Source: Branchiostoma floridae (lineage: Eukaryota; Chordata; Leptocardii; Amphioxiformes; Branchiostomatidae). Taken from it: a DNA stretch of 64,000 bases. The stretch covers positions 23,608,039 through 23,672,038 of the forward strand of contig NC_049986.1 of NCBI RefSeq assembly GCF_000003815.2, written 5' to 3'. Each line of letters starts with the position of its first letter. The stretch's first letter is position 1. Positions 5,115 through 64,000 of the stretch are shown here, in pieces. The notes beneath the pieces were generated by a model that was not told where the DNA came from, ran no database searches, and saw nothing but the letters and a program-made list of their open reading frames with translations. The translations under genes and the position numbers were made by a program.

Positions 5115-5546
5115 CAACTGAACAGCGACGACATTTCTGATTCAAGCGTTGTTTTTACATTGTACTCCCCTACTTGTTTTCTTTGCAAAGCCAGCGTGCT
5201 TGCGTTTGTGTTTCTGTTGGTGCATGTGTTGCTAAGCAGCAAGCTATGAATGAAACGTTATTTGTTTTTCAAACGTTTAGCTTACTCTGGCGAGTCTTAT
5301 TTCAAAAGCAATGCCATTTACTCCGGATTGATTATCTTATTGCCACGTTGTTGCTTGGCTAGACTTGCCTACTTCATTGCAGAATTTTGTAAATAAATCT
5401 GATTTTTTTTTACCTGAGTCCTAGATTCCGGTGAGGCGCTACCTACAATATGTCGATGATACTTGACTGACGTTTTCTTTTGTTGTTGTTGCTCCAGATC
5501 TAGGCTGTTTCTCTACTTCATCCCGAAGACCAAGACAGGAGGAAAG

Positions 5547-6086
5547 ATGATTCTGAAAGCCGCGCTGTTCGTCGCCATGGTGATGGTGGTCACCGCAGCA
5601 CCTAAAGATGATCTCGGGGTAAGATTTTTTTTCTTTTTTAATTGAAGCCATCCATGTGAATTTTTTGCATGAAATAGAACCAAATAGATTTTGCCTGAGA
5701 GAGAAAGGTATTTTCATGTATAGATATAATGTAACTTACAAAATGTAAGTTATGTAAGGTTATTTGCATGATGATAAAGATATCTTATGCAGCTGTGGCT
5801 TTCACACTTTTTTAAACAGGAGGACATCGAATTCGACCGCCAACAGCTCCAGACCGCCGACACTAACCAGGGCATCACCAAGCCCGCCATCCATCGTCTG
5901 GTTCGCCGTAGCGGCCTCAGCCACTTCTTCCAAATCTACGGGTCCGGTATGAACTTTATGGAATTCCTGTTGCACGTGATCCACCTCGCAACGAAATTCG
6001 CCATGAACGAAGGGCGCTTTAGAGTTACCTATGTGGACATGGCCCGAGCTCTCGAAGAGAAAGGTTCCCCTAAACCAAGGTTTTAA
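5547..6086 (+). CDS. Secreted histone H4-like protein, 112 aa, two coding exons
   Basis: Coding exons are 5547-5618 (24 codons, donor G|GTAAGA) and 5820-6086 (acceptor TTTAAACAG, phase 0). Residues 1-18 form a signal peptide (MILKAALFVAMVMVVTA) with likely cleavage before AP. A short acidic stretch (KDDLGEDIEFD) stands where H4 has its basic tail. From about residue 42 the protein follows H4: QGITKPAI is identical, then HRLVRRSG for RRLARRGG, FLLHVI for FLENVI, and VTYVDMARALEEKG for VTAMDVVYALKRQG. The whole histone fold is covered, about two residues shorter than H4 in the alpha-1/alpha-2 region, and the terminal GRTLYGFGG is replaced by SPKPRF. An intron and an AATAAA at 6293-6298 set it apart from replication-dependent histone genes. 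Secretion and any function are inferred. A decaying H4 retrocopy is unlikely because the frame, splice sites and signal peptide are intact. Confidence 0.8.
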
Positions 6087-6292
6087 GCCTTCTACTAATT
6101 AAGTGCCTGAAAACGCTTTTTGGATGTATATATGAGCTGATGTAAACGTTTTTTTTTGGATCACAATAATGTGCTTAATGAATGTTCGAGGCTTCTGTAA
6201 TGTGACATATGATTGTTTTCTTTGTATTGTATGTACCGCATATCATCGGTAATGATGAAAACATTCAGGCCCGTTTGTACTGATTAAAAAGA

Positions 6293-6298
6293 AATAAA
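6293..6298 (+). terminator. Polyadenylation signal of the H4-like gene
   Basis: AATAAA lies 207 bp after the stop codon, giving a 3' UTR of ordinary length. Confidence 0.6.
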
Positions 6299-6705
6299 GT
6301 GTCTGACCCAACACGATCACACATATTTCTCAAATGTTGTAGACGTAAATTATAGCGTTTATTCCTTTATATGATTTCAAACAGTGGCCTGCATATACTT
6401 ACTCTTGTGTATACATATAAAACAGATGGGAATTGCTCTGGACCTGTTACATCGTTGTTAACATTTCTCAAAATATGAAGAACCAACCTGTTACGTTTGA
6501 TTCTTGCTGCATGACTAGCGTTAACCAATTTAATGATATCTGATGTGTCCGCCTATATAATCACACGTGTTTCTGTTGGGAAAGATGCAAGCAAAAATAA
6601 AGGACGTCAAACTCAAATGATATCTGAAGCCTGAGGTTTTTGCCTGACAATTCCTCTTGTTATACACGTAATACGCACACACCGTGCCAGTTTGTTCACT
6701 GATAC

Positions 6706-6930
6706 CCCCTTTCCACTAGGACGGCGCTCTCGACGCGCTCTCTCTGCGACCTCAAAATTGAATTCTATGGAAAAGAAACGATTTTTTTTTTTACACTTGG
6801 TGTGTTTTGTTGTCTTCTTAGTCACCCTTTTACGTTTCGTATGAAATACCCAGTGTGAAAGCGAAGGTTACAAATATCCTATTTAGGTCACAGTGAGAGC
6901 GCAGGGCGATCGCCGTCTAGTGGAAAGGGG
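6706..6930. mobile_element. MITE, CCCCTTTCCACTAG family, 225 bp
   Basis: It begins CCCCTTTCCACTAG and ends CTAGTGGAAAGGGG. Subterminal GCGCTCTC/GAGAGCGC and CGGCGATCGCC-like segments also pair. A second, diverged copy is at 48,529-48,762. Confidence 0.75.
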
Positions 6931-7680
6931 CCTGAGCGCTTTTGTACCTAAATATCGAAAATATGGGATATAAGATCGGATACAGGAATAGCAAATAGGG
7001 ATGACTTAACCAAATCGTCAGGGGTAAGATTCTACACATAGGAGAAGTTAGTCACTTTATGAAGTTATTTAGGTTAATGTGCCTTATGATGAGTACAAGT
7101 GCAAGGCACCAACAAACCATTTTCAACTATTTAAATAGAATTTTGAATTCTAACTTTTAAACTACGTAAGATTTGAGCCCCAAAATTGAAATATTCTCCA
7201 AAACAAAACCTTAATGTGAATGGCCTATACAACAATTTTTTTAGCATATTTGCATCACTTTTTCATATTCCTAGTGTTTGTGAACTTGTGACTTCATCAA
7301 AGCCACGTGAGCGTTGAGGTAAAAGAACCCACAAGGAAACAACAACAAAACATGTTGGCAACAATGGCATCCTCGTTTTCACAATGGGTCAATTTATTTT
7401 TACGTTTCCGAAGGAAAACGCTTTGTTTTTGCTCCCGTTTCCGATTTCTTCCGAAATTAGCCAATCAAAACTCAGATTTCGAAATGACGTCATCAATTAC
7501 GCTGAAAATCGTCATGTATATTAATTGAATATTTAACTAACTGTAAATATTTAAGGTTCAAAATGTACAACACTTAACAGTGGGCTGTTGTTTTTTTGGG
7601 GTCCGGCTTTATCCCCTGTACGACAACACGTACGTTACTATGATGTATAAAGCTCACACTATATAAAATTTAAAAAAAAA
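6931..7680. other. No recognisable gene
   Basis: AT-rich sequence without coding pattern. From about 7,600 the sequence begins to match, inverted, the region near 11,040. Confidence 0.45.
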
Positions 7681-7689
7681 ATCGCCATC

Positions 7690-8130
7690 TATTCTTCTTG
7701 TCCCCTTTCTAGACATGTATCTTGTATATACAAGGTTTTTATTTTGCGAACATGATATCGTACATTTGACACTCGGCTTGTTTTAAAAACTCTTTTGAAC
7801 GCGCGGGGCGGTCCGTGTGGGGAGGGGGACATGCCGCAAATTGACAAATATGTCGTAAACGTATATCGGTTCTGTAGCAAAATAACCTATGTGCCATGCA
7901 GGGACGGGATTACACTTAGGAATTCTCCAAGCAGAGGTTGGGTCGCTATAGCATACAGATATAGTAGTGGTCGGGATTTTTTCCGGCTTGGTCTCACAAG
8001 ACATCGAATGTTTTCTTCTGTTTCTTTTCTTGCGATTTTTCCTTTCTTTCCCATCGGAAACGTCTTCGAAAATGTAGAGCTCTATCTAAAGAGTATAAAA
8101 TTTATAATTATTCCATCTTAAGTTATTTTT
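7690..8130. repeat. Inverted repeat, partner at 10,550-10,990
   Basis: The segment around TTCTCCAAGCAGAGGTTGGG (near 7923) through GGTCTCACAAGACATCGAAT (near 7991) is found in reverse complement at about 10,640-10,745, and homology continues outward on both sides. Both copies carry the same short ORF in opposite directions, which is a repeat shadow rather than a gene. Confidence 0.75.
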
Positions 8131-10340
8131 TTATCATCGGATTGCAAAATGGATGCCTCCTAAAAAATTTAATTCAAAACAGACAGAAAAAAGAAGACCA
8201 AACAAACGTATAGTGCAGAAAACGAACAGAAACAAACACTAGCACACCACATATATATACGGAACTATCTCAGGTACGTCACTAGGAAGTTTTTAATCCC
8301 CCTGGACAATGATTTTGCCCCCCTCCCTCGACAACTTGATGCACGACAGGATTGCAGGTTCACGATTTTTTTCAATCACTGACTTTATCCCGAAAGTACT
8401 ATGACACAATAAAGGGAAGCAACCGGGAAGACACAGTTAGATGAAACATTTTGATCCAGTGTTGAAAATGTAAGTCAGACAATGGTCACGACAGGTTTGT
8501 TTCGTTTTATGAACACATAGACCAGAATCTGGACATCGGTACCTCGGTTTGTGTGGACATAATTCATAAACCGGGTTACTGTTTTAGTGGTCCAATATCG
8601 CCCCTCTGTCAGCTTCTAATTCAGACCATAAAAGATGTCTTTATGGAGACACATTGTAGAAGTTCTGAAACTCTTTCGTTTACCAGAATGTTGTTTTAGC
8701 TCACGCTAACAGCCATTCTCAGCCATTGCGTAATCACCTACAATATGGGTTTCTTTATTCGTTCCAACATATTTCCTTATTCTCCATGAACGGTTCCTTA
8801 CACTGAACTTAGAAATCGATACAATCTGTTAGCCTTTTAATAGATGCATCAAAAAGACAAGAAAAAGAATTCTTTCATTCCATAGATTGTTCTTCTAACT
8901 CATGCTAACAGTGCTCCTCTCTTACTGTTCAATCACTTGTAACAGAACACCTCCACACACAGTTTCTAGTGGCACAACAATTTCTTCTTCTCCTCTAACG
9001 TTTTTAGACACTTAAAATTGCGGGACCAGCACAATCTGCTAGTTTACCTCTATGATACCGTCATGATTACAGTTATGATAACGACGAGTTCTTCAGGGTC
9101 TATGTGCTATTTCTTTCCTCTCGTATTCACAGTCTGAGGTAGTGTATAAGGAGAGCTTTGTTTGTAATCCGCACCTAGGCTTCAATACAAAAGACACTGA
9201 ATCTAGGAAATACTAAAAAGCTACGCAGCATCTTGTCAGCAAAGTTGGCGATGCTGTGTCTTCCCCTATGCGATGAAGTATAAATTATGAGATAGAAATT
9301 TTGAAATGATTTCAGGGTGCAAGATAGTCATATTCACCCCGAGTTTGGTAAAATTGCTCAGTTTGAAATTTTAGAGGGTTTATTTCGATATTTTCCCACA
9401 GACGTTGTATAACTTCTTTTAAAGCTAGTTTAGAACAGTTTTCGTGATTAATTGTTGCTGAAATGTGGTTGAGTTGAGTTTATTGAGTTTATTGTTATAC
9501 CCTTTAGCTCATTGAGCTAATCTTACAGGGCTCATTAAAAACACACACAGTACATACAAGTTATGAAATAGATTCGAGCTGTTATGAAATAGATTCGAGT
9601 GGTTATGAAATAGATTCGAGTGGTTATGAAATAGATTGGAGCATGACAGCTGTGTTTACAGTTACAACAACAACAACTGAAATAAGATCCCAGCATAATT
9701 GTGGGCACACCAGGGCCCTTCTCTAGGCATGACATCGTCGTGATTTTTCTACCTTACCCTGCTGGTAGATATTTATATGTAGGGAGGTTTACCCATATTT
9801 ACAGTTACACCGTTGAAATCACATCCAATTACATCAGCCAATCATCCTTAGATTTGTAAATGATGATTTGCGTAATGTTTTCCAATGGCCTTCAAAAACT
9901 TTATTATATAAGTTTTCTAGTTACTTGGATTTTAGCCGACGTCCGTGCTTTACAAGTCTAGTCCAACTACAGTATAAAAAAGCAGCGAGCTTACATGTGG
10001 GTACTGTAATTCTCCTCTCATTATCTTTCAATGTTTTTGATCTTCCTGTTGCAAAATATACGATAATCCCAAAATATAATCATTTAAAACACACAGAAGA
10101 AACAACCGGAACAAACGCCATTACTGGTGAGTTTTTAATCCTTCTGGTCAAGGATTTTGCCTCCCTAAATGCACAATACACGCTAACAAACTCGATAAGA
10201 AACAACAACTGAAGAAGATCTCCCTTGCTGATAACACAAGGCCCTCTCACTCAGTTATTACATACATATAACAACCTGTGAATTTTTTAACCTTCTTACG
10301 TAAGTCACTCTGTAGTTACATCACCCTTTGGTGGCTCGTA
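8130..10340. repeat. Left arm of a large inverted repeat around the H3-like gene
   Basis: Matches 15,600-17,430 in reverse complement over most of its length, for example TCACCTACAATATGGGTTTC at about 8735 against the complement near 17,180, and CCCTTGCTGATAACACA near 10,222 against the complement near 15,735. It contains four copies of a 21-bp unit, GTTATGAAATAGATTCGAG, at 9560-9645, against three in the right arm. No transposase or reverse transcriptase is visible. Confidence 0.75.
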
Positions 10341-10549
10341 GTTGACACTGCATCACAACGCGGTCAAAGTTCATGTGTGCGTACATCTATTTATACAATA
10401 AATGCTATCGTCCCTTCAGATCATGATGTAACCAAATCTACTTGTTGTTGCTGTAGGTTTGGGTCAAACGCACTACACAGACTATTAAGGTCATATCATT
10501 CAATATTGTCAGTCCCAAAAAGTTGAAACATCTAAAAATGACAAATGAC

Positions 10550-10990
10550 CATTGGTGCTATCAATGGACCCATAGTAAACTATAAAAGCCACATTTTCGA
10601 AGACGTTTTCGAAGGGAAAAGAAAGGAAAAATCACAAGAAAAGAAACAGAAGAAAACGTTCGATGCCTTGTGAGACCAAGCCGGAAAATATCCCGACCAC
10701 TACTATATCTCTATACTATAGCGACCCAACCTCTGCTTGGAGAATACCTAAGTGTAATCCCGTCCCTGCATGGCACATAGGTTATTTTGTCACAGAACCG
10801 ATATACGTTTACGACATATTTGTCAATTTGCGGCATGTTCCCCTCCCCACACGGACCGCCCAGCGCGTTTAAAGAATTTTAAAACAAGCCGAGTGTCAAA
10901 CGTACGATATCATGTTCGCAAAATAAAAACGCTGTAGATACAAGACACATGTCTAGAAAGGGGGCAAGAAGAAGAGATGGCGACTTTTTT
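10550..10990. repeat. Inverted repeat, partner at 7,690-8,130
   Basis: Reverse complement of 7,690-8,130, including the CTCTGCTTGGAGAAT segment near 10,730. Homology carries on past 10,990 into the mirror of about 7,600. Confidence 0.75.
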
Positions 10991-11199
10991 ACCTTATATA
11001 ATGAGTGAGCTTTATACGTCATAGTAACGTCAGATTCGAGCTACACTTTTGGAATTTTTTTTTTCATTCACTTAGAGTTCACCGCAAAACAAGGCTCGTG
11101 GAGCCAATCAAAGCGTTTTGGGTTACAATACTGTATTGTGAAGAAAGATGTCTGTTAACAGTAGACTTATTGAACAGTTTCAGATTGTGCCCCAAAACG

Positions 11200-12130
11200 T
11201 TTTTTAAAAAAAACATATCCATGAATGTTACCAGGACATAAAAAGACAGGCAGGCAACGTCACAGTGCTAAAACGTAGTTATGAAAATGTTTTTGTGATC
11301 AATTATGATATATAACGTAGTTCTAGGCAGTGTTTCGCAGGTGTAGTTATAGCTAAAACAACAGGAAATGAAATCCCAGATTGTTGATAAACCAACTCCA
11401 TATTACTGACTGAAATCTTCCAAATGCTTACATCGATGAAGATGAGACATCCAGGTAATAAGATATGCCAAAAAAGCAGTTACTCAAGCAACTGGATATN
11501 NNNNNNNNNNNNNNNNNNNNNNNNNNNNNNNNNNNNNNNNNNNNNNNNNNNNNNNNNNNNNNNNNNNNNNNNNNNNNNNNNNNNNNNNNNNNNNNNNNNT
11601 GACGAAGGATAGTGAATACTATCCGAAACGTCTGAACCGTTTCCAAAATCATATCCAGTTGCTTGAGTAACTGCTTTTTGGCGCTTCCAAATGCTTGATT
11701 TTTACCGCTGATTCAAATTTCCCTCCACCACTTTGACCGTGTGTGTACCTGAAATTCGTCATTTTTTTGTTTGTTTTTACGTCATATTAGTTTGGGCAAT
11801 TGCAATTGTAGGCCTGTCCTAGAGAAATGATGTCAAACAATCAGAATCAAACAATGGAGTCGGACATAATCATCGCGGCAGTACTATTCTAATGTTATAG
11901 AGCCTTAACAGTGCAGTTTTCACTAAAAATTTGAATTTTACAGTTATTTCATATGAATTTTTCAATGTCCGATTGCAAAATGGACGCCCCCTGAGGAGAT
12001 TCATCCAAAACACACAGATGAGCCACAATATCAAACAGAAGTCTCCCCATATGCAGCTCTGGGAAGGTTTTAATCCCTCTGGTCAAGGATTTTGACCTTT
12101 CCCCCCTCCCCCCACTACATGGTCTACATA
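11200..12130. repeat. Inner inverted repeat, partner at 17,430-18,040
   Basis: AGTTCTAGGCAGTGTTTCGC (near 11,320) and ATAATCATCGCGGCAGTACT (near 11,866) appear in reverse complement near 17,905 and 17,640. A diverged third copy of the GATTGCAAAATGGA segment is at about 8,140. The assembly gap lies inside this arm. Confidence 0.7.
11467..11682. repeat. Palindrome interrupted by a 100-N assembly gap
   Basis: GCCAAAAAAGCAGTTACTC at 11,467 is mirrored by GAGTAACTGCTTTTTGGC ending at 11,682. Bases 11,500-11,599 are N, so the loop of this hairpin was not assembled and its real length is unknown. Confidence 0.8.
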
Positions 12131-12950
12131 CTCCACAACTTATTTTCACTTAGATTTCGATGTTAATTCTGTTGTCAGGAATGTTACTAGATTAAAACTG
12201 TGAACTTATCAGGCGTAGACTTTTGATAAACTGAAACTGTAGATACCAGACCCTTTTCGTGCGACATGGCAAAAACGTAGAGCTCTTAATTATCTAATGA
12301 CCATTTTGTGTCGTCTTCATCAATTTCTTTAGTCTTTCTTGACTGTCTTGTATTGTGGTCTAATCCTGAATCTTTAAAGTTTATCTTGAACTTTAATTTA
12401 TCCTCAACCATTTCTTAAGTGTTTCTGAATTATCTCATGAAACAATGACAGGGCCATTGGAGAAAAGACCAAACAAGTTATTTCATTCAAGGATGAATTT
12501 TATTTTTTTCTTGTTCAACATTGCGAGTCCGACCTTCAGTCTGTTAGCGCTGACAGTAAATTACATTGTTGCTAACATAGAAGTTGGTATTATCATCACA
12601 CAAGTTGTGTTACAGATATCCTATGGTAGCAAGTAGATTGTAGTTAAGCTTACATTAAAACAGAAATCAGATTCGATGACAGTCAATAAACATTGTTACT
12701 AACAAAGAAAAACGATTAACAGAAAATAAAGATGACACAGTATACTACTAGAATATTCTTATGATTTGATTTAGATAGACAATAGACAATTCATATCTGT
12801 ACAGGGCCAATACAATTGTAAAATAACTTTCTTATGAATAAAAAAAAATTAAAAAAAATATTACTAGGATCTGAGGGTATGGGGCATATATGAACTGTTT
12901 ACTGTTACATGAGGCGGATCTGGGTTGTGTTACAGTAACAGTGGGTAAAT
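12131..12950. other. No recognisable gene
   Basis: AT-rich, with only short ORFs lacking any pattern. It contains the expected 3' end of the H3-like transcript at its right edge. Confidence 0.45.
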
Positions 12951-12956
12951 ACTATG

Positions 12957-12962
12957 TTTATT
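12957..12962 (-). terminator. Polyadenylation signal overlapping the H3-like stop codon
   Basis: AATAAA on the minus strand overlaps the stop codon (CTATAATAAAC). If it is used, the 3' UTR would be only some tens of bases long. Confidence 0.4.
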
Positions 12963-13990
12963 ATAGGTCGGTGTTCTCTTCGGTGTCCTCTTCGGTGTCC
13001 TCCTCTTTGACCATAGCCAGGTAGGCCTCGCTGGCTTCCTGCAGGGCCATGACCGCTGAGCTCTGGAAGCGCAGGTTGGGATTGAACTCCCGGGCGATCT
13101 CCTGCACCAGATGCTCGAAGGACGGATCTGGGTTGGGCAGCTCAGTCGACGTCTGGTAGGGGTTCTCTGTGACTTTGTACAGAAAATACAGACATGAAAA
13201 ATCCACCCGATCCTGCACAGCAGACTTTTAAAGCCGTTACTCTGACACGGGTATATCCGCAAGCTAGTTTCAAACTTGGCACTGACAGCATGAACTCCCG
13301 CAGCTTAAGGGTTGATACGCTATCTTCCTTCCACCAAAGCTATGATATTTTGAAATGTGTTTTACTTTGGAAAGAGTCAGTAGATTATGTAATGTTTTTG
13401 GGAGTGTGTTAAAGGATTGGCACATGTACTGGACATTCATTTACGTTCAAAGTATCAAAAGAGCTTAGTGGGTTCCCTTACCCGCCTGTTGGTCGATCTC
13501 GACAAACGGTTGGGTTTGAGGGGGAAAATCCTCCTCTGCTGGCTCGATGTTTTCTGGAGAAACATTGGAGAAAGGAAGGAAAATGTTATTCACCATGAAG
13601 ATAATCCAGGTGAGATTTGAGAACAAGATGAACGGGACATACAATTCCCATCCTCTTTACTACCAGGTTGTTGTCCAATTTGAAACATAGAAGAGGCAGA
13701 AATGATATGTTACTTGCAGGAAACAGAGACAACAATACCATGCATTAGGAAGAGAAAAAAAACAACGTTTGACAATATACAAACAGGAACAATTATTCAG
13801 AGGTAGAAGGGGGAGAGAGCAGTGTAGTACACTGCGTAAAGTACATGATAGCGCACACACTGTGAACAGTAGAAATGTTTACAAGCACAGCAGGTGGGAG
13901 ATAACAACTAAACTAACCTGTAGGAGCCGCTTGAGCGGACAGGAGCACCAGGGCCGCCACTCCCCAGGCTAACAGCGTTGTAGGGTTCAT
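12961..13990 (-). CDS. Secreted histone H3-like protein, 118 aa, three coding exons
   Basis: Coding exons on the minus strand: 13,990-13,918, 13,553-13,482 and 13,172-12,961, all phase 1, with donors G|GTTAGT and G|GTAAGG and acceptors ending TCTCCAG and TACAAAG. Residues 1-22 are a signal peptide ([20 protein letters not shown], likely cut before AP). Residues 25-50 are acidic and Pro/Gln-rich. Then comes an H3 fold: [19 protein letters not shown] for FQRLVREIAQDFKTD, and [19 protein letters not shown], which is essentially identical to H3 alpha-2. The chain then ends in [14 protein letters not shown], so H3 loop 2, alpha-3 and the terminal RIRGERA are missing. The basic N-tail of H3 is absent too. 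A 5' UTR exon ends at 15,302 and splices to 14,000. It could pair with the H4-like product; that is inference. Confidence 0.8.
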
Positions 13991-15301
13991 GTTTCTCGGT
14001 CTGGAGAAAAAAGAGAGACCTGAGTCAATTGTTTAGGCTTGTGCCGCATAGCAAACATTAACGACTGGACTAGAAAATGTTTATGAATCGGCAACACGGC
14101 AAAAGCAGCCACTGGAATAAATCTAAAGCTGTCAAAAAAGACCAATCTGAAATAGATTCCAAGGTTTGATGACTGTCAGCTCTGTGGGCGTGGTTGTGTA
14201 ATTAGGGGCCCAGAGTTTTCTACGTAAGCTGATTGAGCGGTCCAACACAAACAGAAGCCTGGCTAATTTTACTGTGTCCCGCATCAGCGTACCCTAAATT
14301 CCACATATTCCTCTCGATTCGGAACCCTATCTCCAGCCAACATGACTAAAATATTTTTCAGATGAGAACTTACTAACGAAATTAAAGTGTAATTCAGAAA
14401 TTTGAGTGAATATACATAAGGAAATACATGGTAACACTATTGAAACAAGTAACAGGCTGAATTCAAGTTTTACATGGGAGTTACATGCACGTGTACGCGG
14501 CTCCAGATGTCTCACTGAGGGACGACTGCGGAGCAAAACATGTCGGTAGCTTCAGAAATAGATCTACTCTACTTTACACTACTGAACCAGGTAAAAAAAA
14601 TAGCACTAGCACTAAAAGCAAAAAAAAAAACGCCGCTACTGTAACGTCTACACAATCATAGGAAGAAACGGACATAATTGCGAGACAATCCGTTGCCTTG
14701 AGCACATTTCAAACACGGAAAGCCGCTAGCTATAGGTGGCCCAAAGAAACGTGTATAATTGAAATAGTAACATCTGACCATCTATCAGATATCATCACAA
14801 CTTGGCCCAAGCACAACTACGCTAAACCCCTGTCCACACACAAACCTGCCACTGGAAACAGTATCTGATTCGTGTTATAACAAGACAAGAAACACTTTCA
14901 CGGCAGAGTCAAACCTACCGCTAAACTGTAGATAAAACCGCTAAACTACGATCTCTTAACTACTTCAAGCTGCCTGTTTAGAGCCTTAACAAACATGCCA
15001 ATGGAAACAATACCTGCTTCAACAAGACAAGACACACTTTGAGCCCTACCCAACATTCAAAATAAAATTCTAGACGAACATAATGAGATTAAGATCTAGT
15101 GAAAAGCACAAAGATACTGGAACAAACGCTTAAAAACATAGAAACAAGTAATGATCTACCAAAAAACTGGCGTCCCTGTTCAGTAAAGGACGCTATCCGT
15201 GACACTCAGGCCAATTTAGAAAGCAGAAAATTAGTTCGAAAAGGAAGCCATCGGCGTCATTCAGATTGATTTAAAAAGCAGAACAGAAGTGAGAAACTCA
15301 C

Positions 15302-15556
15302 CTGGTTTAACTGACGGGCGAAGAAACTGACGAAGTCACTGATGAAGTGAAGACCTCACGGTGAAGATTGAAGACTGTCGAAGAAACGTCCGACGTGGCT
15401 GAAGTACAACAACAGCGTAGAATGCGGAGATGGATCTGCTACTGGGCTTTTCTAGACAGAAGTGGGCAATTATGCAATTTTTTACCTCTCCATACGACCA
15501 ATCAAATTCAAGCTTACATGAGGTGACAAGTAAAAGGTGGGCGCGACATCCAATCA
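15302..15556 (-). promoter_or_regulatory. Promoter and 5' UTR exon of the H3-like gene
   Basis: On the minus strand a good donor (CCAG|GTGAGT) ends an exon at 15,302, pairing with the acceptor TTTTCTCCAG before 14,000. Upstream there are two CCAATCA boxes (15,498-15,504 and 15,550-15,556, inverted relative to the gene), spaced 52 bp. No strong TATA box is evident; the start site, perhaps near 15,430, is a guess. Confidence 0.4.
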
Positions 15557-15599: not shown

Positions 15600-17430
15600 A
15601 TGTGTCGCCTCAGAGTGATGTAACCACCGAAGGGTGATGTAACCACGGAGTGACTTATGTAAGAAGGATTAAAAAAAATTCTCAGGTTGTTATATGTATG
15701 TAATAACTGAGTGAGCGGGCCCTGTGTTATCAGCAAGGGAGATCTTCTTCATTTGTTCAATTTCTTATCAAGTTTGTTAGCGTGTATTGTGCATTCAGGG
15801 AGGCAAAATCCTTGACCAGAAGGATTAAAAACTCGCCAGTAATGGGGGAGCTTCTGGTTGTTTGTTCCGGTTGTTTCTTTTGCGTGTTTTAATTAGTATA
15901 TAATCATGTAATATAATCATATTACATAATGATTATTATATTTTCGGATAATCGTACATTTTGCAAGGAAGATAACAAAATTGAAAGATAATGAGAGGAG
16001 AATTACAGTACCCACATGTAAGCTCGCTGCTTGTTTATACTATAGTTGGACTAGACTTGTAAAGCACGGACGTCGGCTAAAATCCAAGTGACTAGAAAAC
16101 TTACATAATAAAGTTTTTGAAGGCCATTAGAAAACATTACGAAAATCATCATTTACAAATCTAAGGATGATTGGCTGATGTAATTGGATGTGATTTCAAC
16201 AGTGTAAGTATAAATGTGGGTAAACCTCCCTACATATAAATATCTACCAGCAGGGTAAGGTAGAAAAATCACGACGATGTCATGTCTAGAGAAGGGCCCT
16301 GGTGTGCCCACAATTATGCTGGGATCTTATTTCAGTTGTTGTTGTTGTAACTGTAAACACACCTGTCATGCTCGAATCTATTTCATAACAGCTCGAATCT
16401 ATTTCATAACCACTCGAATCTATTTCATAACCATTTCAAAGATTACCTTTAAAAGAAGTTATGCAACCTCTGTGGGAAAATATCGAAATAAACCCTCAAA
16501 AGTTTCAAACTGAGGAATTCTACCAAACTCGGGGTGAATATGACTATCTTACACCCTGAAATTATTTCAAAATTTCTTTCTCACAATTTATACTTCCACG
16601 CAGAGGGGAAGAAACAGCATCGTCAACTTTGCTGACAAGATGCTGCGTAGCTTTTTATTAGTATTTCCTAGCTTCAGTGTCTTTTGTATTAAAGCCTAGG
16701 TGCTCATTAGAAACAAAGCTCTCCTTATACACTATCTCAGACTGTGAAAACGAGAGGAAAGAAATAGCACATAGACACTGAAGAACTCGTCGTTATCATA
16801 ACTGTAATCATGACGGTATCATAGAGGTAAACTAGCAGATTGTGCTGGTCCCGCAATTTGAAGTGTCTAAAAACGTTAGAGGAGAAGAAGAAATTGTTGT
16901 GCCACTAGAAACTCTGTGTGGAGGTGTTCTGTTACAAGTGATTGAACAGTAAGAGAGGAGCACTGTTAGCGTGAGTTAGAAGAACAATCTATGGAGTGAA
17001 CGAATTTTTTTCTTGTCTTTTTGACGCATCTATTAAAAGGCTAACAGATTGTATTGATCTCTAAGTTATGTGAAAGGAACCGTTCATGGAAATAAGTATA
17101 TATGTTGGAAAGAATAAAGCAGAATCCTCAATAAGATGAGGGCGGCAGCCCTAACGAAAGAAGAAAGAAACCCATGTTGTAGGTGATTACGCAATGGCAG
17201 AGAATGGCTGTTAGTGTGAGCTAAAACAACATCCTGGGAAACGAAAGAGTTTCAGAACTTCCACGATCGTGTCTTCATAAAGACATCTTTTATGGCTTAA
17301 TCAGAAGCTGACAGAGGGGCGATATTGGATCACTAAAACAGTAACCCGGTTTATATGAATTATTTCCGCACAAACCGAGGTACCATTTGGCACATAATCA
17401 GACCAAGGACGTTATATAACGTTATTAAAA
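15600..17430. repeat. Right arm of the large inverted repeat
   Basis: Reverse complement of most of 8,130-10,340 with small indels, for example an AT-rich insertion near 15,900-15,940. The inner boundary, near 15,600, lies just upstream of the H3-like promoter. Confidence 0.75.
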
Positions 17431-18040
17431 TCCTTGACCAGAGGGATTAAAACCTTCCCAGAGCAGCATATGGGGAGACTTCTGTTTGATACTGTGGCTC
17501 ATTTGTGTGTTTTGGATGAATCTCGTCAAGGGGCGTCCATTTTGCAATCGGACATGAAAAATCCATATGAAGGAACTGTAAAATTCACATTTTTGGTGAA
17601 AACTGCACTGTTTGGGCTCTGTAACGTAAGAATAGTACTGCCGCGATGATTATGTCGGACTCCATTGTTTGATTCTGATCGTTTAATATTATTTCATTTT
17701 CTGTTGATATATCTATAACTAAAGCCTGACTAAAATCGCGCCCCTAGCGGCCGACCCTACAATTGCCGCCGCTCGAGGAGGGGAGGGGTCATTAACCCCA
17801 GTCAGCGAAAGATTGTGTCAACACTCGTGGAGGGGGTCATTAACCCCAGTCAGCGAGAGATTGTGTCAACACAGGCTATAGCTATAACTACACCTGCGAA
17901 ACACTGCCTAGAACTACGTTATATGTAATGATTGACAAAAACATTTTCATAACTACATTTTAGCACTGTGATGTTACCTGCTTGTCTTTTTCTCTCAAGG
18001 TAACATTCATGGATATGTTTAGTTTGAAAATCAAAGTTCC
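17430..18040. repeat. Inverted partner of 11,200-12,130, with a 48-bp tandem duplication
   Basis: Continues the palindrome outward. At about 17,783-17,876 a 48-bp unit containing GGGGTCATTAACCCCAGTCA is present twice; I did not find it in the left arm. Confidence 0.65.
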
Positions 18041-18049
18041 AAACGTGTA

Positions 18050-18276
18050 GCTCGCTCGCTCACTCACGCACTCACTCACTCACTCACTCACTCACTCACT
18101 CACTCACTCACTCACTCACTCACTCACTCACTCACTCACTCACTCACCCACCTCACTCACACTCACTCACTCACACTCACTAATTCACTCACCCACTCTC
18201 TCTCACTCACACTCACTCGCTCACTCACTCACTCGCTCACTCACTCACTCTCACTCACTCACTCACTCACTCACTC
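18050..18276. repeat. (CACT)n microsatellite
   Basis: About 225 bp of CACT/ACTC repeats with occasional interruptions. Further runs of the same motif lie at 22,930-23,110 (degenerate, other strand), 44,330-44,422 and 60,053-60,305. Confidence 0.95.
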
Positions 18277-18910
18277 CGAGTTAACGTTACACGTGCTAAT
18301 TGACAAAACAACCTTTCAGCAATATTAAACTTCATGTCTCCTTGTCTCATGGTAATTTTCATTGATACAGTTTATTTGAAAAACAAAGTTCCAGAAGAAG
18401 TAGCGGAAACAGAACATCTCGGACACGGGTTCGAGTGGTTTGCGATTCTACTGTATGTAAACTCCGAATGTACGAACAAATCCATCGGTAGCACCCTGTA
18501 CACAATCCTCATTTTTTGAGTTTTTTTTTATACATACAGGTATTGAAGCTTAGGCCAGATTAATGACACGTGGTATATAAATGGACAAGATTCTAGAAGA
18601 AAACTGAAACATTAACTTAACCATGACGGCATAAAGGGAAACTAATTCTATGTGTTTCTGCCGTTTTCAGTGTCTAGAAACTGAAGGATACCCAAACTAA
18701 GATTCTATATTAAAAACATGAAGCAGATAATCCTTACACCTGGTTCGACCCGTTGAGGAAACTTTAAATGAAGAAGCAAATTAAAACTACAGCTTTCTTC
18801 TCCTACCGTTATGGGATGATGATATCATGCAACATTCTATATGGCTATTCTCATCCCATGACCTTTCACCTAAAATGGCCGTCACAACATATCACTGCAA
18901 TTGAATTTTT

Positions 18911-19070: not shown

Positions 19071-22000
19071 TCAAACCGGAGTTACTGGTGCCTCTGTTGC
19101 AGCCACAGGTGTACTGAAGTAGAAGAAGCCCTGAAGAATTACAAACAAAAGCATTGTATTAATAGTAACAACGACATGCAACATTATCACCATCATCATC
19201 GGTCGACGTGCTTACACACGACGGGGTGATATACCCTTTCGTATGGCTAATTACAAGACGGGGATGCGCCAGGTCTCCGGTCCGGGTGAATGATGTAAAT
19301 TACCATGTGGCTGATACGAGACAGAGGTTCGCCAGGCCTCCATCCGGGTGATTTGAAGTGAACCACCAACTCCAGACAGAAGGACTTGCACCATCGCACA
19401 CCGCACCATCGCACGTGTGGGGGTTCTTTAACGTGCCTGGGGTGTGGCTCTCCCCAGACACGGGACCTCCATTTAACGTCCTATCCGAGGCATTATACAG
19501 GAAAACAATACAATGTAGACGGTGTTGTATAATCTTGGATGTAGCGTAACGGCGATAGGCAGCCAAGTTACCCTATTCAGACAACAGACAACAGCAGAAA
19601 TATCTCACATTGGGGTCTGCCTCCAGTTGCTGTCTGACAGTCGTGGCGTCCGGCCTGGTCTTCTCGTTAAACTTCCAGCACTGCAGCATCAGCTGGTATC
19701 TGGGCGGGAATAGGAAACAGAAGGATAGTCATTATCCAACCCATGACCTTTCCCAATTTGAACTTTTTGACTTGCTACCCTTCTGGAGTATTCTAATGAC
19801 CCGCTCACTTTTTACAAGCAACGCATCCGAGTATGTAAGGACAGGAGTGGGTCAACAGTACCGGAAAGTGAATACCTACCAGTCTGTTTTTTACTTAAAT
19901 GTAAACATAAACTTTGCTTTGCACAGAAAGCCTTTCATTTTAGTAAGGGAATAGTAGATCATCCTACAGTGCGAGTAACCCCTCCCCTATCCTCTCCACA
20001 AACATCAGAGACGTACCTTTCATCTGTGCACAGCTGAGGCCTGGGGAGTCTGAAGTGGTTTTGCAGAGCATCATACAGTCTGTCTGCCCCCTCCATCCCA
20101 GGGTACGGCGTGCGGCCCAGCTGCGCAACTTCCCACAACAGAACCCCAAACGACCAACTGGAAAATAAAATAAAAACCAACGTCAGGCTTTGAGTAATCG
20201 CCACCAGGATATCTTCTCACAACTTACGACCAGAACGATTTACACAAACTAAAACAAGCTAGCTAAGATTGATCCATGCACATGGATTTGGCAAATATAG
20301 ACAGTCTAAACTGTTCGCACTCTGTATTAACATACTCACACGTCACTCTTGTGGGTGAACCTAGCCTCGTTCTTCAGGCCCTCCGGCGCCATCCACTTCA
20401 GCGGCAGGAGGTCTTTACCCTGGGGGAACATGAAGGCAGTTTGTAACTACTAGTGATGTGACGAATTTGTCTTTTTCTGTATAGCCATAAGGATCTCAGA
20501 TGAACAGAAACCAATACTTTAATCTTGATTAGCTTTAATTAGTCTCATTGTCCACTGGATTCTAACGATGCTTTTTATGTAGTTTAACCTACTCCGTCCT
20601 GCCGATGGTACCCCACAGCGTACATGTCCCGAGCCAGCCCGAAGTCCGCGATCTTGGCGGTTCCCTTCCCACAGATCAGGATGTTCCGGGCCGCGATGTC
20701 TCGGTGAACCAACTGGGAACAGATGGAATTCAGGTAACTCAGTATACAGCAGTTTTGGGCATCAATCGTTTCAAATAGATTATGAGAAACGTCTAAACTC
20801 TAAGAAAGAAATTCCTAGATTAGGTATTAGTCCTAATCGCCAAACATAGTACTTCAACCAGGAATCTTCTGGAAGATATGGTAGAACTGATCTTAAACAG
20901 TTTCTCACCCTTCTGCTTGCCAGATGCTCCAGACCGCAGCACACTTCCACCATCATGTTCTCGAAGATGTGCCGTTTGTTGACCAGAACGGTCCTGTTGA
21001 GTTTGGACTCCGCACGTAACGTCCACAGCAGGTGCAGGAGACTCCCGTGTTCGGCATATTCCAGCACCAGTTGGAGCGGACCTGCAGGGAAAAAGAGCAG
21101 GAGCAACTGTGGACTGGACTCATTACAAACTTGACTTGTTTGACCGTTCTCAATAATTTTCGGAATGTTTTTCTTATATAACTGACACTTTTGTGTCAAT
21201 AGGGCAACAATGTATTAAAAGCAGACGACACATAGCAGATGGGAAATGTGTACACGACCCGCAACAATTTCTTGTATTAAATGGGCTCTTCTGTCTACCT
21301 GTCACTTTTGCAATCCTATCTTAACAGCTACACATTAAGGTTCAAACTCGTAAGTCCCAAACCTTCTATAGATCAAATAGCAATGCATAAAACCAACATT
21401 CATGAGTCACGAAGATTTTGTACTGACCGTCTCTAAAGCATATGCCTTTCAGCCCGATGATGTTGTCATGGTTACCACACAACAACATGATGCAGGTTTC
21501 CCTCAAAAGGGCCTGTCTGGTCTGGGGGTCGTCATCGTCTGGATTGAGATTCGTTAGCACATAAAGGAATAAATTGCCCGATAAAACGGAAGGGCTGATG
21601 AAATTCACAATACACAATCTTTTCTATGCAAGTTTTTACCAGTTAAATTAACTTTGTAATCTTAACGAGAAGATGATTTTATGACCACTTCAACTAACAT
21701 AGTAAACTACTAATTAAAAATGAACCACGCGTACGTAAACTTCATTCATAGCAACCGTAGACTTACTTTTGAGTTTCTTAATAGCTACTGTCATATCGTC
21801 TTTTTCAGGATGCGTCAGCGTTGCCTTGACGACATGTCCAAAAGCGCCCTCTCCAAGAAGTTGTCCGCCCTGCAGCCTGCTCCTGTGGATCTCCCGTTCC
21901 TTCAGCAGCTCCATGTCGATACTGCCTGACGAGGAGCCTTCTGTGAACGGCATCATGGCCTGGAATCCAACCAGTATTCTATAAATTTCTAATCTACATA

Positions 22001-22450
22001 AAGTTTATAAGGTTCTTACTAATCACCCATACATTATAAAGGGAATAGGACTTCAAGCTTTGTCCTTTGGGTGAGGTAAGTTTTTATCCTGGATTGTCAT
22101 AGCTTTATGAAGAATAACCTAGAAAATAATCTATTCATATGACTAGGAATAAATTAATCTAACACATTAAATACATATGGTAAATCTAAGTCTATGCAAT
22201 AACATAGTAGGCAGTTGAAAACAAATGTACACACGGCCTTCGTACTTGAATCACAGCACCCACATGATATTAAGGTCAAAACTTGCCTTAAGGTTCTGTT
22301 CGAGTCGGAAGACTTCCGGATCGTCGATGTTGCCGACCCGCAGCCTGTTGTTGTGCCTGTGGAGCAGGAAGATGGCGCCGAGCAGGAGGAGAATCAACCC
22401 GGCTGCTGACAGGCTGATGGCCAGGAGGAGGGAGTCCGGTTCTTTCGGCT
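19071..22450 (-). other. Transmembrane and kinase exons of receptor A
   Basis: The transmembrane helix is about residues 491-513 ([17 protein letters not shown]), followed by [11 protein letters not shown]. The kinase has the P-loop GEGAFG at 574-579, the beta-3 lysine K599 in [15 protein letters not shown] at 700-707, DFGLA at 720-724 and WMAPEG at 746-751. The activation loop has two tyrosines ([10 protein letters not shown]). All catalytic residues are present, so activity is expected. The C-lobe [10 protein letters not shown] and [11 protein letters not shown] are typical of receptor kinases. The tail is short, about 20 residues. Confidence 0.88.
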
Positions 22451-23135
22451 CTGGAAAAGAGTATGCGTTACTTGCTTGGCCTTGTAAATAGGGTTCGCCA
22501 TGTGTACTTCTCCCTTTATATATACATATATAAACGTAACTGCAATCTTGTCTGAAACACATGTACATAATCCATGACACTTAACTCTATGAAGAATGAT
22601 AACGATAACCATGGATATGTCTTCGTGACTATCATCACACTGAGCTAAAGATTCAGTTGTGGCAAATCGGATCAGCTAAAAGATACTCATGGTCGGCTTT
22701 GGTGGAACAACAGAATTCAGAGGCCAGCCTTTGTTATCCATCGAACTTAAAGAACGTCCATGAAAGTGGCTCACCCGGACACCCCTCCCCCTGACAGATG
22801 CAGCCCAGGGTCCGGTTACAGGTCTCCAGTTCGGTACAGTTACAGACCCGGTCACAAAACTCACCGTAAAGGTTATCCTTGCAACCTGAAATATCACAGC
22901 ACGGCATTATATCATTGCAATATACCACATCGAGTGAGCGAGCTAGTGTGAGAGAATGACTGTGCGAGAGTCAGTGCATGGGTAGGTAAATGAGCGAGTA
23001 AATCAGTGAGCGAGCGAACGTTTGTGTGTGAGTGAGCAAGTGTGTGAGTGTTTAAAATGAGTGAGTGAACTTAGTGAGCACCTGCGAAAGGGAGTGTGTA
23101 AGTGAGTTAGTAAGCGAGGGAGCGAACTTGTGAGT

Positions 23136-23173
<38 letters not shown>

Positions 23174-26100
23174 CCTTTAATCCCCTTGCTCCTCGTCTTG
23201 CAGCTTGCAGTTATTTGCCCATAATTGAGTCTGAAGCATCGATACGCCCCCCCCCCCCAAGAAAACAACTGTTGATATAGGATACCTGTTATCGTGATGT
23301 CCACCATGTCGCTGTATTTCACTCCATTGTTTGTAAGAGCTACACAGGCCACGTGACCCTCGTACTCAGGCAGTAGGGAGCTGAGGTGTAGAACAGAAAA
23401 ACTGTGGACGAAAAGGAAAAAAATGTTTTGTACTACGTCACAATATCTCAATTAAACGTATTTTTTTGCTTGTTTCTTTACACTAGTTCTTTATTCTAAT
23501 AAAAAAAACTAAAGTCAGTTGACACTATAGCCCCCTAGTAGGTAGATACGAACCATCAATATGTCGTTTAGCTTTAAGTCAGGAGTTTAGCTGCGAATCA
23601 CGTTATGTGACCATCATCTGGGTAATTTCAAAAGAAGTCTCACTTCTTGCTGCTTGTTACGTTCAGCAGGTTACCAGAAACGTCACTCTTAAATGACCAC
23701 GTGATGTCGGTGACGTCAAGGTTGTTGGCGGTGCAGGTGAGCTGCAGTTCCTGTCCGTACCGCAAGTCGGCCAGTTCGCTGGTTGAAGGGTTGATGCGCA
23801 CTTCCGGGAATACTGATAAAAAAAATCTACTTTAACTGTAATGTCAACACAAAATTATAGCTAGAATAGTTTGATAATGACTAGTACTTCTACCAACACT
23901 GATTAACTTTCAAGTTAAGAAAAAATTGGTGTCAGCTACAACAAATACACGACGTTCCTGGGTAAAATGATGCAGAACTAAGTGAAACGTAATGTGTACA
24001 GCGCATTGGAGAAAAGTTTGCAGAATGTTTTTTCAGCTTTCCATGCAGAGCCCACCTGTGGTGCAGTTCCTTCCCTTCCAGCCAGGGGCGCACCTGCACG
24101 CCCCGTTGAAGCTGTGGCATGAGGCTCCGTTATAACACTGGCAGCGCTCCGCACAAAATCGCCCGAACCGCCCGATGGGACAGGCTAAAAATGGAAAAAA
24201 TGGTTTGGATATCTTATAGCCCAGTGTCGTGATGCGTGATCACATTTTTTATGTATGGACGATTGTCAACGTTTGGGACTGAATCCTTGCCGCAAATAAG
24301 GTATTCACCCAATTGTTCGATGAAATACGAATGGTTATCACTTATAAAGATGGGGGACAAGCCATGACATGGAGGAGAACTGTAGAGCGAGACCTTGCTG
24401 AGATAGGATGCACCTGGGAGGGGTGCAACGAACAGCATCGGATAAGAAACTGTAGAGAACAATAAATGCACGCCTCAGTGGACACTGACATACGACGCAG
24501 TGAATGGAAGTATGCAATTGATTATATGGTTACAGCTTGTTGAAATATGAAGTTTTTGACCCTCATCTAATCGGCGGGCATGTCTAGAATATTGAGCTGT
24601 GGTAGAACAGACAAACAAACAAACGGACAGACAGACAGACAGTCATTTTAAAAATAAAGTAAAATCAGTTGTCCCCACCGTTCACTATGACCTGAGTGCG
24701 GAAGACTTGCCCATTGGTCGCACATTTAATCTCATTAAGAGCAGCATTCTCCTCCCCGACCTAAAACAAGATGCAGAAAGACGTGACATCATCCATTTCC
24801 TCGACAAATACGCTCTGTTGAATCAAAATTCGATTACTTCTCTACATCATATTCCTTAAAGAGGATGTAATTATTTTCCGAAAATATGACATGAACCAAA
24901 ATCAAAATGTCTGAAATAATAACTCGAAATCGCATTCCACATCCGTCACTCGTACAGACGTTACTTTACTACTGAAGCCACGTTTCCGTAAGGTATGCTA
25001 ATCCACGTGGCAAAAGGTCGTATAGAGAGAAGCAAACTTTTGAAAAAAAATTCGCAATAGCAAAGGGAAGAGAGGTGCAGTGCAATTACCTTTACGTTCC
25101 AATACGTGTATTTGACATATGCTGCGCTTTCCTTCAGAGGAAGACGGGTGTAGAAGGGGATCCATGGCCAGTCTTCAAGTGGAAATGTCCTGCATACGAG
25201 AAGACATTTAATTTTCAAACTTAAGATTTTCACAGTCGTCATCACCAGTATATCAATAAGACTACTAACATCACTGTAGTACAAAGATAGTGGATTCCAA
25301 ATGTAAATGGATTCACTAGTCTGGTAATATGTACGTATTACGCATGAACTTGAAACAATATCGATATAAGTGGGCCTACCTCCGCTTGTTTACAAAAAGC
25401 TTAGTGGAGGCCACGGTGTCGGGGTGAGTGGGTTCACAGGAGTACACCGTGTCTGCCGTCAAGTCAAAGTCAAGAAGATTGTCATCAACAGCGAGGTAGA
25501 AATCCAGAATGTCTGTGTGACGACACAACAAAACAAGGTGTAAATCCCCATAGTTTAACGTTACATACTTGATTTCTTGTGAATACAAGAGTTAGTTAAG
25601 TAGTTGGATACGTTTGTAAACGGTTGGATGTTTCAGACAGCATCAGCTACGTTTAGTCACTGCCAGTTTAGACATTTACAAAACTCACCCAGTAGCGTGG
25701 GTCTCAATACCTGGATCCGGATATATACGCGTCTTCGAGGTACTCTTTGATTGATTGTTTGGTTGGTTGATTGATTTACTGTAAATGATAAATAGCAAAA
25801 GGACACTTTTCAGAATATTTCTGATGTGTTGTAGTACCACTCACCACCGCCAGAAGCCGTTTTGCGATCAGTCCTATAGCCGAACGGCGAGAAATTGCTT
25901 TCGTCGTATGTGAACCAGTCGAAAATCTTGATTTTCACAAAGTTCTAAAGAAATGGAAGAAACGGTAGAAAGCCTCCAAATAGCAGTTAGAGTTGCATTA
26001 TTGATTAGCATTTTTTTAATAATAAGACGTCGCCACATATGGTGATTGTACAGATGGAGAGACACATACGTATTTCTTTGGAGTCACAAGCAAGTACGTT

Positions 26101-35520: not shown

Positions 35521-38500
35521 TCACACCGGCGTGGTCATTGCCCCGTTTGCGGCGACAGGTATGCTGTAGTAGAAGAAGCCCTGATGGAATAAAGGGAAAT
35601 AGATTAGGAACAGTAACGTTATAGCAACAATGCCTCATTACTCAACAACATAATAAAATGACTGACATCAAGAAATGTCAAGAGCCATCCTACATACAGC
35701 TTTATTTGTTAGTATAAATATCTCACATTGGGATCGGCCTCCAGCTGTTGTCTGACAGTCGTGGCGTCCGGCCTGGTCTTCTCGTTAAACTTCCAGCACT
35801 GCAGCATCAGCTGGTATCTGGGCGGGGAAACAGAACAATACTCCTTATACATTCAGTCTCATTACTTTCTTCATTTCCGAAGTCTTCCTCTGGTATTCCG
35901 AAGACAGATTCACGTCTGACAAGTGACTTTTAGGAAGACGTACAATTTGGAATTGGTCAAAGGTACCTCAAAGTTAATACCGCGCGCCATCTTGTATTTG
36001 ACATAAAATTGGCAAAGGATGTTGCACTGTCTCTTTTTATCTCTTTTTATGAAGCTACCTGTGTCCGAGAGTATTTGTAAATATTGCCCCTCAAATGCTG
36101 TGGAAGACGAGAGTCATTTTATCACTAATTGTTCTTTTTATGATGATATAAGAAACCAACTATTTATGAGTGTATCCAAAATACACGCTTACTTTCCAAC
36201 TATTCCTGACAATGAAAAATCAATCCTACTATTAAAATCAAAGAACCCACACATTATAAAAGAAGTGGGTAAATTCGTCTTCCACTGCCTAAAGAGAAGA
36301 AGTCTAACCCAACAAAACCAGTATAATGTACACTAGCATAGCATATAGTCATAGAATGTAGTTCCTAGCACCTTTGTATTTTCCTTATTTTACATGTTGT
36401 TTGTACCTGCAATTAGCCCTCGGGCAAGAATTTGCAATAAACATATCAATCTATCAACGATTAACTATTCTTAGTAGTTTTTCTCAAGACGCACCTTTCT
36501 TCTGTACAAAGCTGAGGTCTGGGGAGTCTGAAGTGGTTTTGCAGAGCATCATACAGTCTGTCTGCCCCCTCCATCCCAGGGTACGGCGTTCGGCCCAGCT
36601 GCGCCACTTCCCACAACAGAACCCCAAAGGACCAGCTGGAAAATAAACATGGTATTACACGGAGAAGACTTGCATCAGAATCATACGGTTCAACACGATC
36701 GACAGGAGTAATTGCAAATAATTGTTTTTTCTGGGATTCTATCCAAGAATTTGTTCGTTTCTGGTCTCGAGTTTCGTGTCCAATGACACCATAAATACTC
36801 ACACGTCACTCTTGTGGGTGAACCTAGCCTCGTTCTTCAGGCCCTCCGGCGCCATCCACTTCAGCGGCAGGAGATCGTTGCCCTGAGGAAACATTAAGGA
36901 AATTTCACTAATGGTATGTTGATGAACGCCGTCTCTGTTTTTTCTTTTAATTTGCTTATAAAGACGGAGACTGCGTTACCGTCAGCTCTGTGAACTTATC
37001 TTTTACAACGCCGTAGGATATCGAAATGAAGTATATCTGAATAAAGTCAAAGAGAATCCACAGACAATCATCAAAGCTTTCTCTGTGGTAACCTACCCCG
37101 TCCTGCCGATGGTACCCCACAGCGTACATATCCCGGGCCAGCCCGAAGTCCGCGATCTTGGCGGTTCCCTTCCCACAGATCAGGATGTTCCGGGCTGCGA
37201 TGTCTCGGTGAACCAGCTGAGAACAGATAGAATTTGGGTAACTAAATCGTCTGACGTTTTCATCATTTTTTTATCAGTCACTTTCAATAGCTTATGGGAA
37301 ACGTCTAAACGCTTAGAAAGAAATTTCTAGATTAAGGTATTGATTCTAGTCGCCAAACACCGTACTTGTATTGAGCTGGAAATCAAAAGAGATGGTAAAA
37401 GTGATCTTTAAGAGGTTCTCACCCTCCTGCTTGCCAGATGCTCCAGGCCGCAGCACACTTCCACCATCATGTTCTCGAAGATGTGCCGTTTGTTGACCAG
37501 AACGGTCCTGTTGAGTTTGGACTCCGCACGTAACGTCCACAGCAGGTGCAGGAGACTCCCGTGTTCGGCATATTCCAGCACCAGTTGGAGCGGACCTGCA
37601 GGGAAGCAGAGTTAACTGTTGGCTGGATTTATCGAAAACTCAACTGGAACCTTTTCATGTTACTGTTGTTTTCCGCGTTTGTCCGAGATTTAGTAGCGTT
37701 CTGTGTCTGCTCCACTAGATAAGATAACTAATTTGACCCGTAGACAAAGATACAAACTCACCGTCTCTAAAACAGATGCCTTTCAGCTTGAGGACGTTGT
37801 CATGGTTACCACACAACAGCATGATGCAGGTCTCCCTCAGAAGGGCCTGTCTGGCCTGCTGGTCCTCGTTGTCTGGATGAATATTATTTATCTATTTATC
37901 AAGGTTCTCCAATACAGTGGAAGGCATGGTGGAACAGGTGTTTTTTGTTAGAAGGCACATTTTCAAGGACGCCATACCGAAAATATTTACATACATGCAA
38001 GCAATGGGATAAAAAGCAAACTTACATCGTTTATACCTCATTCACTTATTTTCTCTACATGTAGTAAGGTTTTCTAGTTGATGAGTAAATGAGCAATTGG
38101 ACTTAGATCAACGTCGACTACTGCAATGTTTAGCATTGTGTTAAAATTGAATAGCTCTTTTACCTTTCAGTTTCTTGACGGCTACCACTACGTCATCAGT
38201 TTCTGGTTGCGTCAGCGTTGCCTTGACGACATGTCCAAAAGCGCCCTCACCCAGAAGCTGTCCGCCCTGCAGCCTGCTCCTGTGGATCTCCCGTTCCTTC
38301 AGCAGCTCCATGTCGATACTGCCTGACGAGGAGCCTGCTGCAAGCGGAACCAGCGCCTGGAGAAAAGGTAATTGTTCACACAGTTCTGGCAGAAAATACG
38401 TGGTATACCCATGATATATATTTCTAATGTGACTTGTTCAACATAAGTTGACTTTGCAATGACAATAACGGCTAAGAGACAGACAATCGTTAATTTCTGT

Positions 38501-38824
38501 GCTTGATGTGCACACAAAAGAAATGTATTGATTGAGTAAGTGAGATTCAGTTCTGGTTTCAAAATATTGGGATCATCAGATTGCTTTACCATATACGTAA
38601 AATAAAATCAAAGTCTTGCAACTTCAATTTGTCTGAAATAAACATTTTAGCACCACGTACTATTAGATTCTGTTCGAGTTGGAAGACTTCCGGATCGTCG
38701 ATGTTGCCGACCCGCAGCCTGTTGTTGTGCCTGTGGAGCAGGAAGATGGCGCCGAGCAGGAGGAGAATCAACCCGGCTGCTGACAGGCTGATGGCCAGGA
38801 GGAGCGTCTGAGAATCGCCCGGGT
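35521..38824 (-). other. Transmembrane and kinase exons of receptor B
   Basis: The transmembrane exon matches A at nearly every base from the helix to the juxtamembrane DDPEVF. The kinase keeps [26 protein letters not shown] and WMAPEG. The loop between the first kinase strands differs mildly (DNEDQQARQ for DDDDPQTRQ). The donor after the transmembrane exon follows CTAATA, so the last residues read NLI where A and C have NLK. Confidence 0.87.
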
Positions 38825-63974: not shown

Positions 63975-64000
63975 GTACGTCTGGGGTATTTTGGGAGGAG

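Follow-up and report, generated by a model that had tools for sequence, protein, structure and literature searches.

Two convergent amphioxus genes predicted to encode secreted relatives of histones H3 and H4, one of them a candidate binder of extracellular histones

Histones found outside cells are usually held to have leaked out or to have been released with chromatin. Can an animal genome also encode histone-derived proteins that leave the cell through the secretory pathway, and what would they do there? The question is raised by two genes, here called A and B, in a 64,000-nucleotide stretch of Branchiostoma floridae DNA (assembly GCF_000003815.2, contig NC_049986.1, positions 23,608,039 to 23,672,038, forward strand), referred to below as the window; all coordinates are positions within it. 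Gene A is related to histone H4 and gene B to histone H3. The structure and histone parentage of both genes are evident from the DNA sequence, which also points to their expression and secretion. We regard A and B as very probably real genes for secreted, histone-derived proteins and, much more tentatively, as functional ones, with B gripping and neutralising extracellular histones. The spliced gene models are as follows.

5547-6086, + strand: gene A, two coding exons, 112 amino acids
5498..5546, + strand: probable part of the gene A 5' untranslated region (UTR), 3' of a UTR acceptor at the 98.8th percentile
5547..5618, + strand: gene A coding exon 1, 24 codons, phase 0; signal peptide MILKAALFVAMVMVVTA, then APKDDLG
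5820..6086, + strand: gene A coding exon 2, an acidic stretch, then the H4-like domain (H4 about 24-95); stop codon at 6084-6086
6283..6298, + strand: likely polyadenylation signals of gene A, ATTAAA at 6283 and AATAAA at 6293 (motif scan)
13990-12961, - strand: gene B, three coding exons, 118 amino acids
15302..15400, - strand: probable 5' UTR exon of gene B; downstream edge at 15302, the upper limit of 15400 being a guess
13918..13990, - strand: coding part of gene B exon 1, 21-residue signal peptide, then APT; the exon starts at 14000, after the UTR acceptor
13482..13553, - strand: gene B coding exon 2, an acidic, proline-containing linker, phase 1 at either end
12961..13172, - strand: gene B coding exon 3, H3 residues 54-106, then an acidic tail; stop codon at 12961-12963
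12499..12504, - strand: possible polyadenylation signal of gene B, AATAAA (motif scan)

A further AATAAA found by motif scan overlaps the stop codon of B, read down from 12962. The start codons stand at base 5547 (A, + strand) and base 13990 (B, - strand), each with the base A at position -3. The genes are convergent, with 6.9 kb between their 3' ends; a preliminary description of this locus had reported this close linkage, and its coordinates proved exact. Each splice site was ranked, with hand-entered matrices, against every GT or AG in the window, both strands included, and five of the six coding sites lie above the 96th percentile: the exon 1 donor GGGGTAAGA (98.8th) and exon 2 acceptor (96.7th) of A, and the exon 1 donor (98.2nd), exon 2 acceptor (98.3rd) and exon 2 donor (99.6th) of B. 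The 5' UTR intron of B is near-perfect: its donor CAGGTGAGT after 15302 and its acceptor before 14000 each rank at the 99.96th percentile. Exon phases are compatible in both models, being 0 at the one coding junction of A and 1 at either junction of B.

Both spliced models carry the hallmark of classical secretion, an N-terminal signal peptide with a cleavage motif, as judged by a rule-based scan, by the splice sites and by the -3/-1 small-residue rule. The predicted junctions fall between VTA and APKDD in A and between AQA and APTEN in B, so the features first described for the pair (signal peptides, introns, cleavage between A and AP, acidic mature N-termini) are all seen in the spliced models. 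Mature A has 95 amino acids, a net charge of +1 and an isoelectric point of 8.4, and mature B has 97 amino acids, a net charge of -21 and an isoelectric point of 4.05; neither contains a cysteine or an N-glycosylation site. The G+C content at third codon positions (GC3) is 0.68 in A and 0.72 in B, against a G+C content of 0.41 for the window.

How readily could such leaders arise by chance? Both strands of the 64 kb were scanned for an ATG leading into a stretch that resembles a signal peptide and ends at a good donor, and four such exons emerged. Two belong to A and B; the remaining pair, at 12890 (+) and 27213 (-), we regard as background. The chance expectation of a signal exon upstream of a histone exon is 0.004 for A and 0.013 for B, but the rules are crude and the thresholds were set after A and B had been seen, and these expected counts are indicative only. 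Decaying histone pseudogenes might also have stayed open by chance, since under neutral simulation (400 runs per gene) the frame remained free of stops in 0.30 of the runs for B and 0.19 for A. We consider this account very improbable in view of the intact signal peptides, the phase-compatible splice sites with five of six in the top ranks, the base at -3 of both starts, the high GC3 and, in B, the retention of hydrophobic residues and an unchanged block of H3 described below. The case for functional genes draws on several features in combination: signal exons and splice sites, composition, and the pattern of retention.

The parentage given in the preliminary description was borne out by comparison with named histones. 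In phmmer searches of the PDB, A matched 92 sequences at E<=1 (best 3.3e-7), and all of the best 60 of these 92 are named H4, one of them also H2A. The unspliced 88-residue reading of B exon 3 matched 175 sequences at E<=1 (best 8.1e-13); among the best 60 of the 175, 59 are named H3 and one is a 'histone domain-containing protein'. Exon 3 of B also matches Pfam PF00125 at 4.3e-9, and A has no Pfam match at E<=10. Typed histones compared with the window by tblastn gave 3.7e-14 for H3 and 6.8e-8 for H4. Alignment scores separate the families clearly: 96 for A with H4 (next best H2A, 38; z 15.9) and 144 for B with H3 (next best H2B, 34; z 27.9), with 1000 shuffles each. SAVM marks H3.1 and AAIG marks H3.3, according to a passage in PMC4510971; B carries the S87, V89 and M90 of H3.1/H3.2, and its parent was therefore probably a replication-coupled H3.

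Why should an H3 and an H4 relative lie side by side? Neither in their leaders nor in their linkers do the two genes resemble each other (p 0.66 and 0.37, 2000 shuffles); having no detectable kinship, the signal peptides were probably acquired separately. In both genes the histone part occupies a single intron-free exon, as expected of copies of replication-coupled histone genes, which are intronless. H3 and H4 genes are often adjacent, and descent of A and B from one transposed replication-coupled H3-H4 pair, with leaders gained separately and functions now unrelated, would explain the linkage equally well, so that linkage alone does not decide whether the products pair. The SAVM residues of B, the single histone exons and the unlike leaders all suit this account, which we hold only tentatively. 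It requires two independent leader acquisitions, and the window holds no other trace of a histone cluster. No credible relative of H1, H2A or H2B was found in it by tblastn (best E 1.8, 3.2 and 0.16), and no Rfam family, the histone 3' stem-loop included, reached its gathering score in the window; at E<=5, Rfam gave three weak matches in 5500-14100, no histone element among them. Shared descent is compatible with the neutralising role favoured here for B, and our confidence in the one does not exclude the other.

What B keeps of H3 is the basis for that role. It aligns without gaps to H3 54-106 (33 of 53 residues identical), and the identities are concentrated in one block:

13018..13074, - strand: gene B stretch that agrees with canonical H3 82-100 at every residue (position derived from the tblastn match)

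Within 82-100 all 19 residues are identical, whereas the rest of 54-106 has 14 of 34 (hypergeometric p 7e-6). H3 82-100 covers loop 1 and early alpha-2, the part turned towards H4 when the two histones dimerise. Over 54-106, 19 of 25 hydrophobic residues are retained, compared with only one of seven K/R residues, and the lost basic residues include R63, K64, R69 and R72, which lie close to the DNA in nucleosomes. The likeness stops at residue 106, inside alpha-2, and an acidic tail follows. Unlike canonical replication-coupled H3 (H3.1/H3.2), which it otherwise matches over 54-106, B carries a signal peptide, and its linker and tail are acidic; it lacks the basic N-tail, the end of alpha-2, loop 2 and alpha-3. 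The label 'H3-like' thus stands for descent, which is clear; as regards the fold it overreaches, because B has about two helices and not the complete alpha1-L1-alpha2-L2-alpha3 of core H3. A single-sequence AlphaFold2 model of exon 3 likewise consists of two helices, with a mean predicted local distance difference test score (pLDDT) of 64.3. Comparison of this model with the PDB by Foldseek gave 13 matches, the first eight of them chains of nucleosome complexes at 60-62% identity (probability 0.91-0.99, E 0.016-0.13), and at that identity the chains should be those of H3.

A block that faces H4 and has remained frozen to canonical H3 while A diverged suggests a partner that is itself unchanging, with native H4 as the foremost candidate. 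Taken with the missing basic residues and a net charge of -21, the block points to capture and shielding of extracellular histones. We consider that B may well bind native H4 or other histones, although we would stop short of calling this probable. In the mechanism that we propose, signal-peptide exons would have come to lie before copies of replication-coupled H4 and H3 genes, and B would then have lost most of the parts that bind DNA and build nucleosomes, its H4-facing segment staying unchanged. Outside the cell this segment would dock on extracellular H4, whether from released chromatin or as an antimicrobial histone, and the acidic arms would shield the basic charge of the bound histone, so that self-damage would be limited or the histone held for delivery. 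A, which keeps the alpha-1 surface of H4, might likewise capture H3 or act as a modified H4-like effector. Sections of a review (PMC11827605) report that small polyanions neutralise extracellular histones and that antibodies to H3 or H4 rescue animals from lethal doses in mouse sepsis models.

A broader version of this proposal is more doubtful: both halves of an H3-H4 pair may have been made secreted, with a truncated, acidic pseudo-H3 capturing native H4 and a pseudo-H4 capturing H3, or with the two pairing. It is similarly uncertain that such a system would amount to histone chaperones built from histones and at work outside the cell in an animal lineage.

Gene A has changed more widely than B. 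Aligned with H4 over 64 residues, it has 29 identities; 12 of 27 hydrophobic positions are identical and 22 of 27 still hydrophobic, and five of 13 K/R residues are kept. The alpha-1 region is well preserved (QGITKPAI.RL.RR.G), and a loop-2-like RVTY and an alpha-3-like segment, TYVDMARALEEKG, are recognisable. R45 is altered, and the loop-1/alpha-2 start is rearranged, with two one-residue gaps in the phmmer alignment and larger ones with Smith-Waterman and MAFFT. Further differences from canonical H4 are the intron, the absence of the GFGG C-terminus, and a signal peptide and acidic stretch where H4 has its basic DNA-binding N-tail. A single-sequence AlphaFold2 model of exon 2 (mean pLDDT 65.1) has histone-like helices at 7-13, 21-31, 33-40, 46-60 and 71-80; none of its 34 Foldseek matches is a histone. 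Comparison of the models with VIA-align adds little.

Do A and B then bind each other? The preliminary description had proposed a dedicated extracellular histone-fold heterodimer. In such an arrangement, possibly a half-handshake, loop 1 of B would pair with loop 2 of A and the alpha-2 helices would cross, the matching opposite end having been lost. The histone relatives in the window are of H3 and H4 only, no credible H2A, H2B or H1 accompanies them, and A keeps the loop-2-like RVTY and the alpha-3-like segment, B a loop-1-like NLRF. We nevertheless consider mutual pairing unlikely, and the dedicated heterodimer unsupported. A private pair would let the interface of B change as A diverged; it did not, with B frozen at H3 82-100 and A reduced to 29 of 64 identities, which is unlike a co-evolving pair and suggests that A is not the partner of B. 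In addition, the H3 likeness of B ends at residue 106 and B has no alpha-3, and the linkage has a simpler source in shared descent.

Several observations nevertheless weigh against B as a neutraliser of histones. In the geometry of a histone handshake, the damaged loop 1/alpha-2 start of A would lie at the same end as the parts missing from B (the end of alpha-2, loop 2 and alpha-3), which suits a half-handshake between the two. The H3-identical block might stem from gene conversion or recent origin, and an isolated loop 1 with half of alpha-2 may be an unstable binder of H4. In A, the interface is not well kept, as the hydrophobic and K/R counts above indicate. Both structural models are of low confidence, and neither has a Foldseek match at E 0.001. 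For exon 3 of B the acceptor ranks low (74.9th percentile), and an in-phase CAG acceptor lies 6 nt downstream of it. The open frames are modest evidence, given how often simulated neutral frames stay open. Binding of histones by B, like the expression and conservation of A and B, stands as a prediction.

A different role for the pair can also be considered. A could be the precursor of an antimicrobial or other peptide, its basic H4 alpha-1 segment being freed at RLVRR by furin-like cleavage, with B as an acidic inhibitor or carrier. A contains one RxxR and one dibasic site, both within the H4-like part, the opposite charges of mature A and B suit such roles, and there is a precedent in sebocyte-released histone H4, given in part of the same review as a major antimicrobial of skin secretions (PMC11827605). 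The cleavage motif, however, goes back to the RRLARR of H4, and A lacks cysteine and is only weakly positive in net charge; we judge this reading decidedly improbable.

For B as a secreted neutraliser of histones, and for A beside it, partial parallels are known. Histones that act outside the cell as antimicrobials or danger signals, such as those of neutrophil extracellular traps and sebocyte H4, share with A and B the use of histone sequence in that setting; to our knowledge they are ordinary histones without a signal peptide. We found no secreted histone-derived proteins of the present kind in the open PubMed Central literature, as judged by titles and the beginnings of abstracts. The neutralisers clusterin, FSAP, CEACAM8 and heparin are, as far as we know, not histone-derived, which sets them apart from B. 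As endogenous agents named in part of the review, they resemble B in its proposed job of binding and shielding basic histones (PMC11827605). The main text of that review nowhere uses the term 'signal peptide'. If the proposal is correct, the histone fold has been adopted in evolution as a module for use outside the cell, by way of the secretory pathway, and the two genes would offer a natural design for the neutralisation of toxic histones there. The idea is open to direct test with two small recombinant proteins that lack cysteines.

The surroundings of the two genes are rich in repeats. Large inverted repeats at 8566-12093 and 15624-18030 lie on either side of gene B in shuffled order, their longest arms being 458 and 357 nt and 96% complementary, a pattern suggestive of transposable elements around the gene or of its inverted duplication. 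A gap of 100 N in the assembly lies between A and B at 11500-11599. Inverted arms of about 390 nt at 7675-8060 and 10607-10990 (93% complementary, about 2.5 kb apart) have a foldback-type look. A 62-nt inverted repeat at 699-899 (97% complementary, 77 nt apart) resembles a miniature inverted-repeat transposable element, and a long CTCA-type tandem repeat array occupies 18051-18290. Frames for receptor tyrosine kinases with immunoglobulin (Ig) domains occur at three similar loci, 19576-24000 (-), 36800-40700 (-) and 59100-64000 (+). Of the eight open frames scanned, seven have kinase or Ig family matches at E<=0.01 and five pass a curated cut-off; the three loci make up a small local duplicated family.

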